From the IMG/VR virus record IMGVR_UViG_3300042197_004567, positions 1 through 38,724 of that record: a DNA stretch of 38,724 nucleotides. One strand, given 5' to 3'. Origin of the DNA: a virus. Position numbers and translations under genes: made by a program. A model generated the notes under the pieces. The model ran no database searches. It was not told the origin of the DNA and worked only from the letters and a program-made list of their open reading frames with translations. Below, one piece after another: positions 3,063 to 27,018 of this stretch; the first letter of the stretch is position 1; each line of letters opens with the position of its first letter.

Positions 3063-6000
3063 ACTACATCGCAATTCAGGGCGAAACGCCGCGTCCGTTA
3101 GACGACCTGCGGTATTTGCTGCCAAACATTTCTTTTCCAGAAGACGAACTGACTTCGACCAGTGACTTGGCTGCGTTTATTGCTTTGGCGGGATACGAAG
3201 CCTGCACCGTCACGAATACGGAAGCGTCGGTTACGCTAGCGTGGAATCAGATTGCGCAACTGGGAACAGCCAGTCGTGTGGCCGGCGCGCTAGTTGCCGC
3301 GTGGGCGCCCGTCGCCATCTCTGCCGACGCCCAACTTACGAAACTCGCCGACGAGCGCAGTATAAAATCTTCGGCCTCCGCGGCGGCAACAGACGCCGTA
3401 TACGACGCGCCGCAAACGTTCGCCACAGGCACTGGACAAAATGACCCGGCTGTGTACATGCGGCCAAATTCCGACACAATTGATTCGCTGTCTCAACTGT
3501 TGCTCCTTGCGGTTGTGGATACGTTAGCCAATCCGCAAAACGCGGCAGCATTAATCACGATCATCGACGCCGCCGGAACGAGCGTGCCGTTGACGCAGAC
3601 TCAACTGCGCACACTGGTCGCCGCGCTAATCGACAAAAAAGCCGAGGTTATTTCTTTGCGAACGGCATTGCGCGCCGATTTGACCACATCGCGCACGCCG
3701 GACGTAACCGTGGCGGCTTTGGATTCATTTAACAACGAAATTTTAAAGACGTCATTTCAGACTATCAGCGGTTTCGACATGCAAACCAGAGACAACCAAC
3801 CGTTGTTGCAGAAACAACTCTACAGCGCGTCGTCTAGTCTGCCGTCTACCCCGACCGGACTGACCAGCACCGCCGGCAACAATCAAATATTGTTGTCGTG
3901 GACTGCGGCTAATGCGCCCGCACAGGTGCCGATTGTGGACTATTTGGTGCAGTACAGTTCCAACAATGGAACGACGTGGCAACTTTTTGACGACAGTATC
4001 GGCGCAGGGACGACGGCCACGGTGACCGGACTCACTAACGGCGCAACTTACATCTTTCGCGTTGCGGCAGTAAACGCAATCGGCGTCGGCGCCTACTCGC
4101 CGGCGACGGCACCCATCGCTCCAGTGGCGCCGTTGACGGCGCCAACAAACCTTATCGCCACTCCCGGCAACCAGCAATTGCAACTCACATGGACCGCCCC
4201 AACGAGCACCGGTGGTGGCACGATTACCGAGTATCGGTTGCGTTACACGCCCGCCGGCGGCTCACAACAAACTGTGAACACAAGTACAACGGCTACTTCG
4301 TATACTTTAACCGGGCTTACGAATGGCACTGCGTACACAATAGATGTGGCGGCAGTGTTAAGTTCAGTCGTCAGTTCGTACAGCAGCGCGGCAACTGGTA
4401 CGCCGGACGTCGTACCAAACGCGCCCACCGGTTTGTCTGCTACTGCCGCGGTGTTGTCAGCGCTGCTTTCGTGGTCTGCGCCAACGAGCAACGGCGGTAC
4501 AGAAGTTACAGAATATGCCGTCGAGTACTCCAGCAACGGCGGCACGAGTTGGACAGCTTTATCGGCAGATTCGTTGATTGGCACAACGATTTCCGGCCTT
4601 ACGGCCAACATTTCTTACTCGTTCCGGGTTGCCGCAGTGAACGATCTTGGTGCCGGACCGTGGGCGACGACATCGGCAACACCGCTTCCGCCTGTTATCA
4701 CCATCACCAGTCAGCCGGCCAATCAGACCGCCGCAAGCGGCGCCGCTACGTTCTCTGTCGCGGCAACTGTTACAGGCAACGCCACCCTGTCTTACCAGTG
4801 GCAGAAGCAAGAAAGCGGTTCTGGTTCGTTCACTAACGTGGGCGGCGCGACAAGTAGCACTCTCGCGCTGTCCGGCCTGACCAACGCCGACGACAACGGC
4901 GACGTTTACCGCGTGGTGGTCAGCGCAACCGGCGGGGCAACCAGCGTCACCAGCAACAGTGCGACGGTGACGGTGGCGGCGGAACTGTCCAATTACGCTG
5001 TAACCATCAGCGGCTCTACGACTCATCCGGTGGCGGGGACATACTTGCTCTGGGGAACACTTAACGCCAAGCCGTACTGGCTGCGGATTGTTAATGGTGC
5101 ACCGAACGGCTATATTTACTCGATTCCGGACAACAACGGTACGTGGCTGGTTGGCCCGACGCTCGGAAACGGAAGCGGCACCCAGCAAAACGCGTGGTAT
5201 TATACATACAACAATGGGGACAAAAATACTCCACCGTTGTCGGGTTGGGCGCCGCAAAATTACGGCGGAGACGTAGCACTTACGTCGGCCGCACTGGGCT
5301 CCGCCACAACAGCCGCAGCACCCACAAATCTAGTCGCTGTCGCTACAAGTCTCACAACGGTAGCATTGACATGGACAATGCCGACAGACAACGGCAATTC
5401 TGTCATTACGGGCTACCGTATTGAATACACGCCGGCTGGCGGTTCCGCACAAACGATTAATACGAGCACTACGGCAACAAGTTACGAACTCACTGACCTG
5501 ACAACAAGCACGGCGTACTCGATTCGTGTGGCCACGCTAAACGCAATTGGGGCCAGTTCGTATTCTGACGCGGCCAGTGCTACTCCGTATTACCCAATTT
5601 ATAGTGCTACCGTCGTGCTTGGCCCGCCGGGGCAGCCGCCGAGCGGCCGTTACGTTTATTCCGAAATTTATAACGGCAAACCCGTTTGGACGCACTACAC
5701 CGACGGTACACCCAGCGGCCGCATAAACTGGTCAACATTGGGTTACTGGCGTGCCGGTCCAAGTATTTCTAATGACATTTCTGACAGTTGGTTCAGAAAA
5801 TATAACGACGGCGACTATCCTCCGTTAACAGGTTGGGATGCACACTATTGGGGCGGGTCGTTTGAATTGTCGTACGCTGCTCCGCTGCCAGTCATCGCCA
5901 TCACCAGCCAGCCCTCCAATCAAACAGCCTCTGGCGGCAGTGCCGCGTTTAGCGTTTCGGCGACGGTCACGCAAAATGCCACCCTGTCTTACCAGTGGCA

Positions 6001-21672: not shown

Positions 21673-21849
21673 ATGTCTCCGCTCAGATTCTTTCGTGAAA
21701 TAGCCATCCTGCTCGCCACGGTCGGCGGGGCAGTGCTTGGCTATGCCGCCACGCTCGACATGGAGCCGGCGATTAATGTAGTCGGGCCATTTCTCGGCAT
21801 GTCGCTTTTGGGCGCCTTTGCCGATATCTGCATCCGAGGAGGAAAATGA
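21673..21849 (+). CDS. 58-residue membrane protein
   Basis: MSPLRFFREIAILLATVGGAVLGYAATLD, then a second hydrophobic stretch (INVVGPFLGMSLLGAFADICI). Two short transmembrane helices with a small loop give a hairpin topology. GGAGGGAACCG precedes the ATG and the stop overlaps the next ATG (ATGA), which supports translation. The family is unknown; a two-helix phage membrane protein could act in lysis timing or exclusion, but nothing specific shows it. Confidence 0.6.
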   Translation: MSPLRFFREIAILLATVGGAVLGYAATLDMEPAINVVGPFLGMSLLGAFADICIRGGK

Positions 21850-22364: not shown

Positions 22365-22630
22365 GGGGGTGAAGCATTAACAGTGATGCAAGGGACTTCA
22401 ACTTGGAGTGCTTTGAAGGAAACTTCAGAAGTAGAACTGCTCAAATTCGGCGAACCCTATATCGGCAACGCCGAGCCAAGCCCGGCAACGGGACGGTGTA
22501 GAGACTTGACGGGCAGCACCTAAACCAAACGGCACGGTGAAGGCAAAGTCCAGACCACGAACTGAAAAGGCGGTGAAAACCGAAGTGGTAAGTTAATCCC
22601 TAGAACTAGGTGCAAGTCCTAGCACCCCCA
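22365..22630 (+). tRNA. trnK: tRNA-Lys(UUU), interrupted by a group I intron
   Basis: Exon 1 is 22365-22398 and exon 2 is 22593-22630. Joined they give a perfect cloverleaf: acceptor GGGGGTG/CACCCCC (7 of 7 pairs), D stem GCAT/ATGC, anticodon stem AGGGA/TCCCT, T stem CTAGG/CCTAG and discriminator A. The anticodon loop becomes CTTTTAA, the standard Lys(UUU) loop, with the intron between U34 and U35. CCA is not encoded. Odd points: position 8 is A not U, the D loop TAACAGTG lacks GG, and the T loop TGCAAGT has G at position 55. So the usual D-loop/T-loop contact (G18-Psi55, G19-C56) cannot form as normal. T-runs follow at 22631. It could be functional or slightly degenerate. Confidence 0.8.
22399..22592 (+). 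ncRNA. Group I self-splicing intron, 194 nt (IC3-like)
   Basis: All core helices can be paired by hand. P1: exon ACUU plus intron C with GGAGU (22405-22409), giving the U-G wobble at the splice site. P2: TGAAG/CTTCA with GAAA loop (22414-22427). P3: CTGCTC (22437-22442) with GGGCAG (22511-22516). P4: TTCGGC with GCCGAG (22446-22451/22470-22475). P6a: CCCG-GCAA-CGGG (22481-22492). P7: GACTT (22503-22507) with AAGTC (22546-22550). P8: CACC/GGTG (22517-22520/22536-22539). P9: ACCAC/GTGGT (22554-22558/22585-22589) enclosing CGGT-GAAA-ACCG. The last base is G (omega G). Core sequence closely resembles the Azoarcus tRNA-Ile intron (from memory). No ORF lies within it. Confidence 0.92.
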
Positions 22631-23213
22631 TTTTTTCGAGTTTTTTAAGGCAAGATAACACGTTCTTTTTTACGTCCGCCGCAGGAAAGCGTATAACGGT
22701 CCAGCCATTCTTTCGGCTGAACGCATCTCGCCGGGCGTCGATGGTTTTGACTTTTTCTGTGTTGTGCGTGGCCCCGTCTATTTCTACGTCGAGTTTCAAC
22801 TCGGGCCACGCAAAATCATATGCGTAAATGCTGTGTTGATAGTTGTAAATCCAACCTGTGATGCCGGCCGCTAGAAGGGCGTTTTCAAACACGATCTCGG
22901 GGTAACTTTTTTTCGACGAGTGATTTATTCTGTACGGCACTTTGTCGGGATTATTCTGCAAAAATCGAATACGACTTTTTGCTATTTTTTTCTTTGTTTC
23001 AGCCGTATGGCGTCTAGGAAATTTACCTGCCGCCCACGCCCCGCGAATCGCATCGCCCCTGCGGCGCGATTTAAACTGCCCTCTTTTTTCAGCGGCTCGT
23101 ATTGTCGCCATGCCCGCACCAAACTCTTTTTGCACGTCTCTCCACGTGTGCCCGCGGTCGTAAAATTTTTGAACAGCCGCCCAGTCGTATTTTTTGCGTG
23201 CGTCCGTGCACAT
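22593..23213 (-). CDS. Homing endonuclease-like protein (HTH, NUMOD3-like, Vsr/EDxHD-type nuclease)
   Basis: 206 residues on the - strand. Residues 10-47 look like a helix-turn-helix (TWRDVQKEFGAGMATIRAAEKRG). Residues about 68-90 (RHTAETKKKIAKSRIRFLQNN) resemble NUMOD3 DNA-binding repeats. Residues 103-193 look like a Vsr/DUF559-type nuclease: SYPEIVFENALL (Glu), IYAYDFAWPELKLDVEIDGATH (Asp, Asp and His) and RRDAFSRKNGWTVIRFPA. Such proteins drive intron homing. Its stop codon (TAA, antisense of 22593-22595) falls exactly on the first base of tRNA exon 2, so the last 12 residues are antisense to the tRNA. The gene and its 140-base AT-rich upstream gap are AT-richer than the neighbours, a sign of transfer. 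AGGAT precedes the ATG. Nuclease activity is inferred. Confidence 0.8.
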   Translation of the reverse strand: MCTDARKKYDWAAVQKFYDRGHTWRDVQKEFGAGMATIRAAEKRGQFKSRRRGDAIRGAWAAGKFPRRHTAETKKKIAKSRIRFLQNNPDKVPYRINHSSKKSYPEIVFENALLAAGITGWIYNYQHSIYAYDFAWPELKLDVEIDGATHNTEKVKTIDARRDAFSRKNGWTVIRFPAADVKKNVLSCLKKLEKMGVLGLAPSSRD

Positions 23214-26649: not shown

Positions 26650-27004
26650 GGGGCCGATTTTAGATTCGACGGGATAAGGAAGATTAAAACTGCATGCCGT
26701 GGTTGATCGGGTGGCCACGTTAAAACTCGATTACGTTTCTAACCGGCGCGTTTGCTCCGGCCCTCGCTGCCTGACCTCGGTCCGGCGGTGGGTGGGGCGG
26801 CCTGAGCCCCATCGCCCAATCAGGTTGATCGTGGTAAGCCACGTGCGTCGGTCCGGCAAAGAAATCGGACAGGATCGTGGTAGTCCACGTGACTCCGCTA
26901 AGTGTGCGGATAGCATTGCCGGTTGGTGAAAAATAACCGGATACGCATGTAGACGTTTTAGTTGGAGATATCGCCGGACGCCGGTGCAAATCCGGCCGGC
27001 TCCA
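26650..27004 (+). ncRNA. ssrA: tmRNA (transfer-messenger RNA)
   Basis: 355 nt. It rescues stalled ribosomes and tags incomplete proteins. The tRNA-like ends pair GGGGCCG (26650-26656) with CGGCTCC (26997-27003), discriminator A, T arm GCCGG-TGCAAAT-CCGGC. The conserved GATTCGACGGGAT block follows the 5' end. Helix H2 pairs TTAAAAC and TGCATGC with GCATGTA and GTTTTAG near 26945-26961, with a three-base bulge. Pseudoknot 1: CGTGG/CCACG plus GATCG/CGATT. The tag frame starts at GGC 26745 and encodes GAFAPALAA, then TGA. A second pseudoknot (GGGGC/GCCCC interleaved with CCTGA/TCAGG) and several hairpins follow. T-loop position 55 is G instead of U. CCA is not encoded. Confidence 0.93.
26745..26774 (+). 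other. tmRNA tag reading frame (GAFAPALAA, TGA)
   Basis: The resume codon is GGC at 26745, preceded by TAACC, comparable to the TAGTC before the E. coli resume codon. With the alanine carried by tmRNA the tag would be A-GAFAPALAA. The ALAA end is the standard degron read by ClpXP and similar proteases, so tagged proteins should be degraded by host machinery. Confidence 0.88.
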
Positions 27005-27018
27005 CTTTGTGCCAGAAA

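Follow-up and report, generated by a model that had tools for sequence, protein, structure and literature searches.

The closest known counterparts of the locus reported here are compact introns of tRNA genes. Introns of tRNA-Leu(UAA) share its insertion point (U34/N35) and its compact, ORF-less fold, and those found there in phages are related to it, the one in the tRNA-Leu(UAA) gene of a 735-kb uncultured phage record (LR756501) being 77% identical over ~168 nt; the present intron differs from the known tRNA-Leu(UAA) type in its host gene, tRNA-Lys(UUU), in its phage replicon and in its P10 guide. The Azoarcus tRNA-Ile(CAU) intron, at ~205 nt, belongs to the same size class and appears to have the same set of helices, but interrupts another tRNA at another splice position. 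In Gordonia phage Daredevil the tRNA, the insertion point and the core are those found here, whereas the intron is 238 nt long, GC-rich and flanked by genes for an integrase and an HNH protein.

A second group of counterparts concerns the gene next door. In cyanophage S-PM2, as in our locus, an intron lacking an endonuclease is accompanied by a free-standing endonuclease gene, F-CphI, that adjoins the interrupted gene, psbA, and this pairing, termed collaborative homing, has been proposed for the two (PMC6083498). There, however, the host gene encodes a protein, the endonuclease is of another family and cutting has been shown, whereas at our locus it is hypothetical (PMC6083498). SegB of phage T4 is likewise a free-standing homing endonuclease in a phage tRNA gene region (PMC2988022, PMC13096335), but it belongs to the GIY-YIG family and has no intron beside it. 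As of a 2014 review, all known phage introns lay in protein-coding genes, despite the many tRNA genes of phages (Hausner et al., PMC3984707). We found no later paper on group I introns in phage tRNAs, and none describing a phage tRNA-Lys intron combination, in a literature that largely excludes subscription journals and leaves novelty unproven; introns go unmentioned in the main text of the huge-phage paper (PMC7162821). The tRNA-Lys group I introns reported in cyanobacteria (PMC5733544) proved to be insertions of 22-49 nt, too short for group I introns.

A group I intron in the anticodon of a phage tRNA-Lys(UUU) gene

The window, by which we mean the whole 38,724-base stretch analysed, is an IMG/VR virus record, in keeping with the phage origin assigned to it by an earlier, sequence-only reading. 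That reading had also proposed a group I intron flanked by the halves of a tRNA-Lys, and both parts of the proposal hold. A local Rfam search matches RF00028 at 22389-22574 (46.7 bits, E 6e-11, model 1-253 of 253); the default Rfam scan of the window does not report RF00028, because 46.7 bits falls below its curated cut-off of 50. When the exons are joined (22365-22398 + 22593-22630), ARAGORN calls a tRNA-Lys(ttt) of 72 nt with every stem perfect, while in the unspliced window DNA it calls no tRNA, intron mode included. The intron splits the anticodon between U34 and U35, a position that it shares, as first read, with tRNA-Leu(UAA) introns, and an endonuclease gene would not fit within its 194 nt. 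Positions 22399-22592 are thus confirmed as a group I intron inside a phage tRNA-Lys(UUU) gene, from which it is predicted to splice. The features are as follows.

22365-22398, plus strand: 5' exon of tRNA-Lys(UUU), with the acceptor 5' strand, D arm, anticodon 5' stem and C32 U33 U34 (ARAGORN; alignment with the unbroken tRNA-Lys of related phages)
22395-22409, plus strand: P1, exon ACUU (22395-22398) paired with intron GAGU (22406-22409), U.G at the 5' splice site (T22398/G22406)
22399-22592, plus strand: group I intron, 194 nt, ORF-less, first base C and last base G (RF00028, covariation, absence from 13 related contigs)
22403-22405, plus strand: P10 guide UUG, two of three pairs with 3' exon UUA, less strong than UAG, the guide in most tRNA-Lys introns
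22411-22431, plus strand: P2 with GAAA loop, double changes in 4-22 sequences per pair
22437-22516, plus strand: P3 (22437-22442 with 22511-22516), enclosing P4, P5, P6 and the P7 5' strand; kept as a helix in every sequence, with as many as 5 pair types
22501-22551, plus strand: P7, the guanosine-binding helix (22501-22506 with 22547-22551, bulged A22502), enclosing the P3 3' strand and P8; invariant in 43/43
22555-22588, plus strand: P9 (22555-22558 with 22585-22588), enclosing P9a with GAAA loop (covariation alignment)
22593-22630, plus strand: 3' exon of tRNA-Lys(UUU), with U35 U36 A37 A38, anticodon 3' stem, variable loop, T arm, acceptor 3' strand and A73 (discriminator A at 22630)
22593-23213, minus strand: free-standing DUF559 (Vsr/PD-(D/E)XK-like) endonuclease gene, 206 aa, convergent to the tRNA (PF04480, E 1.6e-10)

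The fold is complete for P1-P9, the splice-site U.G, the bulged P7 and the terminal G (G22592), and carries GNRA loops on P2 (GAAA), P6 (GCAA) and P9a (GAAA), so that each of the structural hallmarks first listed from the letters is present. We projected the helices of the window onto 43 aligned introns with pairwise identity <90%. Pairing is kept in 93.8% of the base-pair cells of these diverged introns, whereas shuffling gives 76% and sliding the partners by 1-3 columns 29-43%; of the 54 base pairs, 34 show changes on both sides. Compensatory changes occur in P3, P4 and P8, while P7 and most of P4 are invariant; every core helix thus either covaries or is invariant across the 43 related introns. 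This covariation rules out a chance origin, and likewise a bulge-helix-bulge intron. The 5' splice-site pair is U.G in 40 of the 43 and C-G in the remaining three, a conservation that is partly by construction, as the split-tRNA finder used to collect the relatives demanded a U before the intron and a G at its end; in the window itself the splice sites are fixed by the unbroken tRNA-Lys of related phages, which aligns to the exons. Lack of P5abc and of P7.1/7.2, together with size and insertion site, agrees with subgroup IC3. This is, in short, a genuine group I intron of ordinary appearance in an uncommon place.

Related introns in phages and beyond

Because ARAGORN's intron mode gave nothing, we wrote a script that searches for a tRNA cloverleaf split around the core motif; as a control, it returned 0/159 false calls elsewhere in the window. 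The short core motif occurs in at least 120 viral stretches, and among the matches listed about half of the loci are split tRNAs. The remaining half or so did not resolve as tRNAs, and some lie within protein genes; capsid genes, for instance, are apparently split by related introns in Pelagibacter phage HTVC120P and marine phage KM23-C739 (L005 2001-2141; L007 1946-2126, 2655-2835), where the annotation lists the pieces as distinct capsid proteins. A pattern built on the 3' part of tRNA-Lys introns was found in 22 viral stretches, four of them known from the first scan, and in 7 bacterial ones, including Microbacterium murale and Poribacteria.

Taken over all scans, tRNA-Lys(UUU) introns at the U34/U35 site occur in ~20 other viral contigs as well as in Gordonia phage Daredevil, Microbacterium and Poribacteria. 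The Daredevil genome (an isolate; NC_048021, with L094 the same genome in IMG/VR) carries its intron unannotated. The suggestion that this pairing of tRNA and intron was new to phages therefore fails. As to size, the 194 nt first read from the letters is borne out but its exceptional smallness is not, since nine loci (L141, L147, L137, L138, L047, L120, L140, L041, L144) have tRNA-Lys introns of 181-189 nt, 181 nt being the shortest found. Two further contigs (L131, L139) bear a clearly different group I core, with P10 guide UAA, at the same tRNA-Lys(UUU) site, and introns of the same core type as ours also reside in phage tRNA-Leu, Glu, Arg, Ser and Ala genes. The window intron thus belongs to a widespread, mostly unannotated set in phage tRNA genes, of which it is neither the smallest member nor the sole lysine case.

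Several neighbouring observations came from the same scans. On the viral contig L047, a permuted tmRNA (3451-3721, minus strand; RF04321, 70.4 bits) lies near the 184-nt tRNA-Lys intron. Intron-like matches are present in 1280 plasmid records, mostly enterobacterial, and among the matches listed most have no annotated feature; on the E. coli resistance plasmid pB4-L (L158, from 2434) a tRNA-Leu(UAA) with a group I intron adjoins tmrB and aac(3)-IId, and an Acinetobacter plasmid (L157, from 1967) has a tRNA-Leu(UAA) with a group I intron too, the plasmid introns measuring 212-214 nt.

Changes of host tRNA and of the P10 guide

A tree of 67 introns requires at least 16 changes of host tRNA, where 8 would be the fewest possible. 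Two Leu introns are nested within an otherwise Lys clade (support 100/99) and Arg(UCU) introns fall within Leu (support 99/97); the window intron has no firm placement on this tree. The P10 guide, a triplet that lies just 5' of the P1 guide and pairs with the 3' exon, tracks the host gene, reading UAG for Lys (exon UUA) and UUU for Leu (exon AAA). Averaged over Lys introns, 2.68 of 3 P10 pairs form with the native exon and 0.96 with that of Leu; for Leu introns the figures are 2.36 with the native exon and 1.13 with that of Lys. In 35 Lys/Leu introns thinned to <90% identity, none of 10000 label shuffles, which ignore relatedness, reaches the observed match. The introns therefore appear to move among U34 tRNAs, the P10 guide altering to fit the new exon. 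Because the guide in the window, UUG, resembles the Leu guide with one extra G, this intron may have moved recently from a tRNA-Leu.

Empty sites and the neighbouring endonuclease gene

We located related viral contigs through the proteins that flank the tRNA (glycosyltransferase 68-82% identical) and merged duplicate loci of one contig, which left 13 distinct contigs. At the syntenic position all 13 carry a tRNA-Lys(TTT) that is unbroken, which is the strongest single argument for the intron and supplies the intron-free relatives with which the sequence-only reading had wished to compare the locus. Downstream follow tRNA-Leu(TAA) and tRNA-Val, then tRNA-Glu and usually a tmRNA where the stretch extends far enough, and in the nearest relatives the genes on either side of the unbroken tRNA-Lys are homologous to those at 21846 and 23295 in the window. 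Once the exons are joined, the anticodon arm is identical (window AGGGACTT|TTAATCCCT, L176 GGGGACTTTTAATCCCT), while over the alignment as a whole the window exons are more diverged than the tRNA-Lys sequences of the relatives. At the tRNA-Lys of the 13 related contigs there is neither an intron nor a DUF559-type endonuclease gene, and because both are absent from all of them, both were probably gained in the lineage of the window, loss from every relative being the less likely alternative. Neither this empty site nor the adjacent endonuclease gene had figured in the earlier reading. The phage group encodes a tmRNA along with tRNA-Lys, Leu, Val and Glu (window 26650-27007; L167, L173, L174, L176, L177, L180); the window has no recognisable copy of tRNA-Val.

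The 206-aa protein encoded beside the tRNA matches PF04480 with 41.3 bits against a cut-off of 20.6, and the final dozen or so codons of its gene run antisense across the tRNA-Lys 3' exon. It matched no solved structure significantly, and a single-sequence AlphaFold model (pLDDT 44) was too poor for use. A protein search from it led to one viral locus only. In several phages homologues are annotated as homing endonucleases, and they occur inside tRNA clusters of Leptolyngbya, Rhizobium, Providencia, Aeromonas and Escherichia phages; in two further sampled Escherichia phages with a homologue, no annotated tRNA lies nearby. In phage tRNA clusters such genes repeatedly stop right at the end of a tRNA or run a few bases into it (L002 5526-5532, L037, L051, L161 1202-1203, L183 1933-1947); the homologue of Rhizobium phage RHph_TM61 does so, and that of Escherichia phage WFL6982 overlaps a tRNA by 15 bases. 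Three elements stand in series in L037 (1201-1700, reverse complement): first an endonuclease gene, next a tRNA-Lys(UUU) that is intact, and last an intron-bearing tRNA 3' half that lacks its acceptor 5' half, which looks as if recombination had displaced the 5' half.

This endonuclease may help the intron to spread, as was proposed for F-CphI and the psbA intron. Since tblastn detects no such gene near any other complete tRNA-Lys intron locus from our scans (the exception being the truncated tRNA of L037), we put this aid forward as a hypothesis, under which the two would form a collaborative-homing unit recognised here by gene order and co-presence. An even call in our judgement, bearing on the homing part only, is whether intron and endonuclease are instead unrelated insertions, the intron having moved alone by reverse splicing or by recombination with an intron-bearing phage. 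Homologues also adjoin intron-free tRNAs, so the link may be coincidental; members of the family sit in phage tRNA clusters without known introns, in line with the missing endonuclease at the other tRNA-Lys intron loci. Set against this, both elements are present in the window and both are missing from 13/13 relatives at the same tRNA.

Discussion

Judged by its fold and conservation, the identity of its exons, the empty site, the changes of host gene and the adaptation of P10, all described above, this compact, ORF-less element is very probably a mobile or recently mobile intron of a phage tRNA-Lys(UUU), resident in this lineage, for which splicing and a role of the endonuclease in mobility are inferred. 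The precursor tRNA would fold into a ribozyme that holds the 5' exon end, ACUU, in P1 with U.G at the cut; guanosine would attack after U34, the freed 5' exon would then attack just past the intron's final G, and the ligated exons would form tRNA-Lys. We suppose that the intron was gained together with, or near, the DUF559-type endonuclease gene that now stands free beside the tRNA. The wider family would spread among tRNA genes with U as the first anticodon base, since their 5' exons all finish in the same CUU.

The tRNA itself has unusual elbow bases (A8, a D loop without G18G19, and T loop TGCAAGT with G55). The D loop AG for GG and the TGCAAGT loop are common to the spliced tRNA-Lys of the window and to that of the relative L173 (4149-4224), a combination that amounts to a paired change at the usual G18-U55 elbow contact. 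Such an elbow could mean that the gene is decaying, and we considered it unlikely, if conceivable, that the tRNA is a dying copy that retains the intron fold while splicing has become slow or been lost, host tRNA-Lys being sufficient. The imperfect P10 of the window (2/3) and the greater divergence of its exons would suit such decay, but the tRNA stems are all perfect and the intron core is intact, and since L173 shares the same T loop and AG D loop, the elbow may be a tolerated variant.

The anticodon of tRNA-Lys is a known nuclease target (PrrC). Phage tRNAs counter tRNA-cutting defences (PMC13096335). That the intron is kept because it benefits the phage, perhaps as a shield of the anticodon loop against host anticodon nucleases or as a means of controlling when the tRNA matures, would fit its insertion precisely within that target but is highly improbable, as many other tRNAs host the same introns, 13 related contigs do without one, and the tRNA is exposed again after splicing.

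Returning to a mobile intron, it is possible, if on balance doubtful, that a large and mostly unannotated population of phage group I introns circulates among U34 tRNAs (Leu, Lys, Glu, Arg, Ser, Ala), re-tuning P10 as it goes, and that the window intron and its tRNA-end DUF559-type endonuclease represent a collaborative-homing pair. Introns in phage tRNA genes are in any case numerous, in contrast to the picture drawn in 2014 (PMC3984707). Because both ARAGORN and the default Rfam cut-off miss the window intron, such tRNA genes are likely omitted from annotations and the tRNA repertoires of phages undercounted. The interest thus lies in phage tRNA introns as a class, in how they move among U34 tRNAs and in the endonucleases at tRNA ends, more than in this one member, and the switch of tRNA type with a matching change in P10 offers a natural series in which the adaptation of a ribozyme to a new insertion site can be tested.
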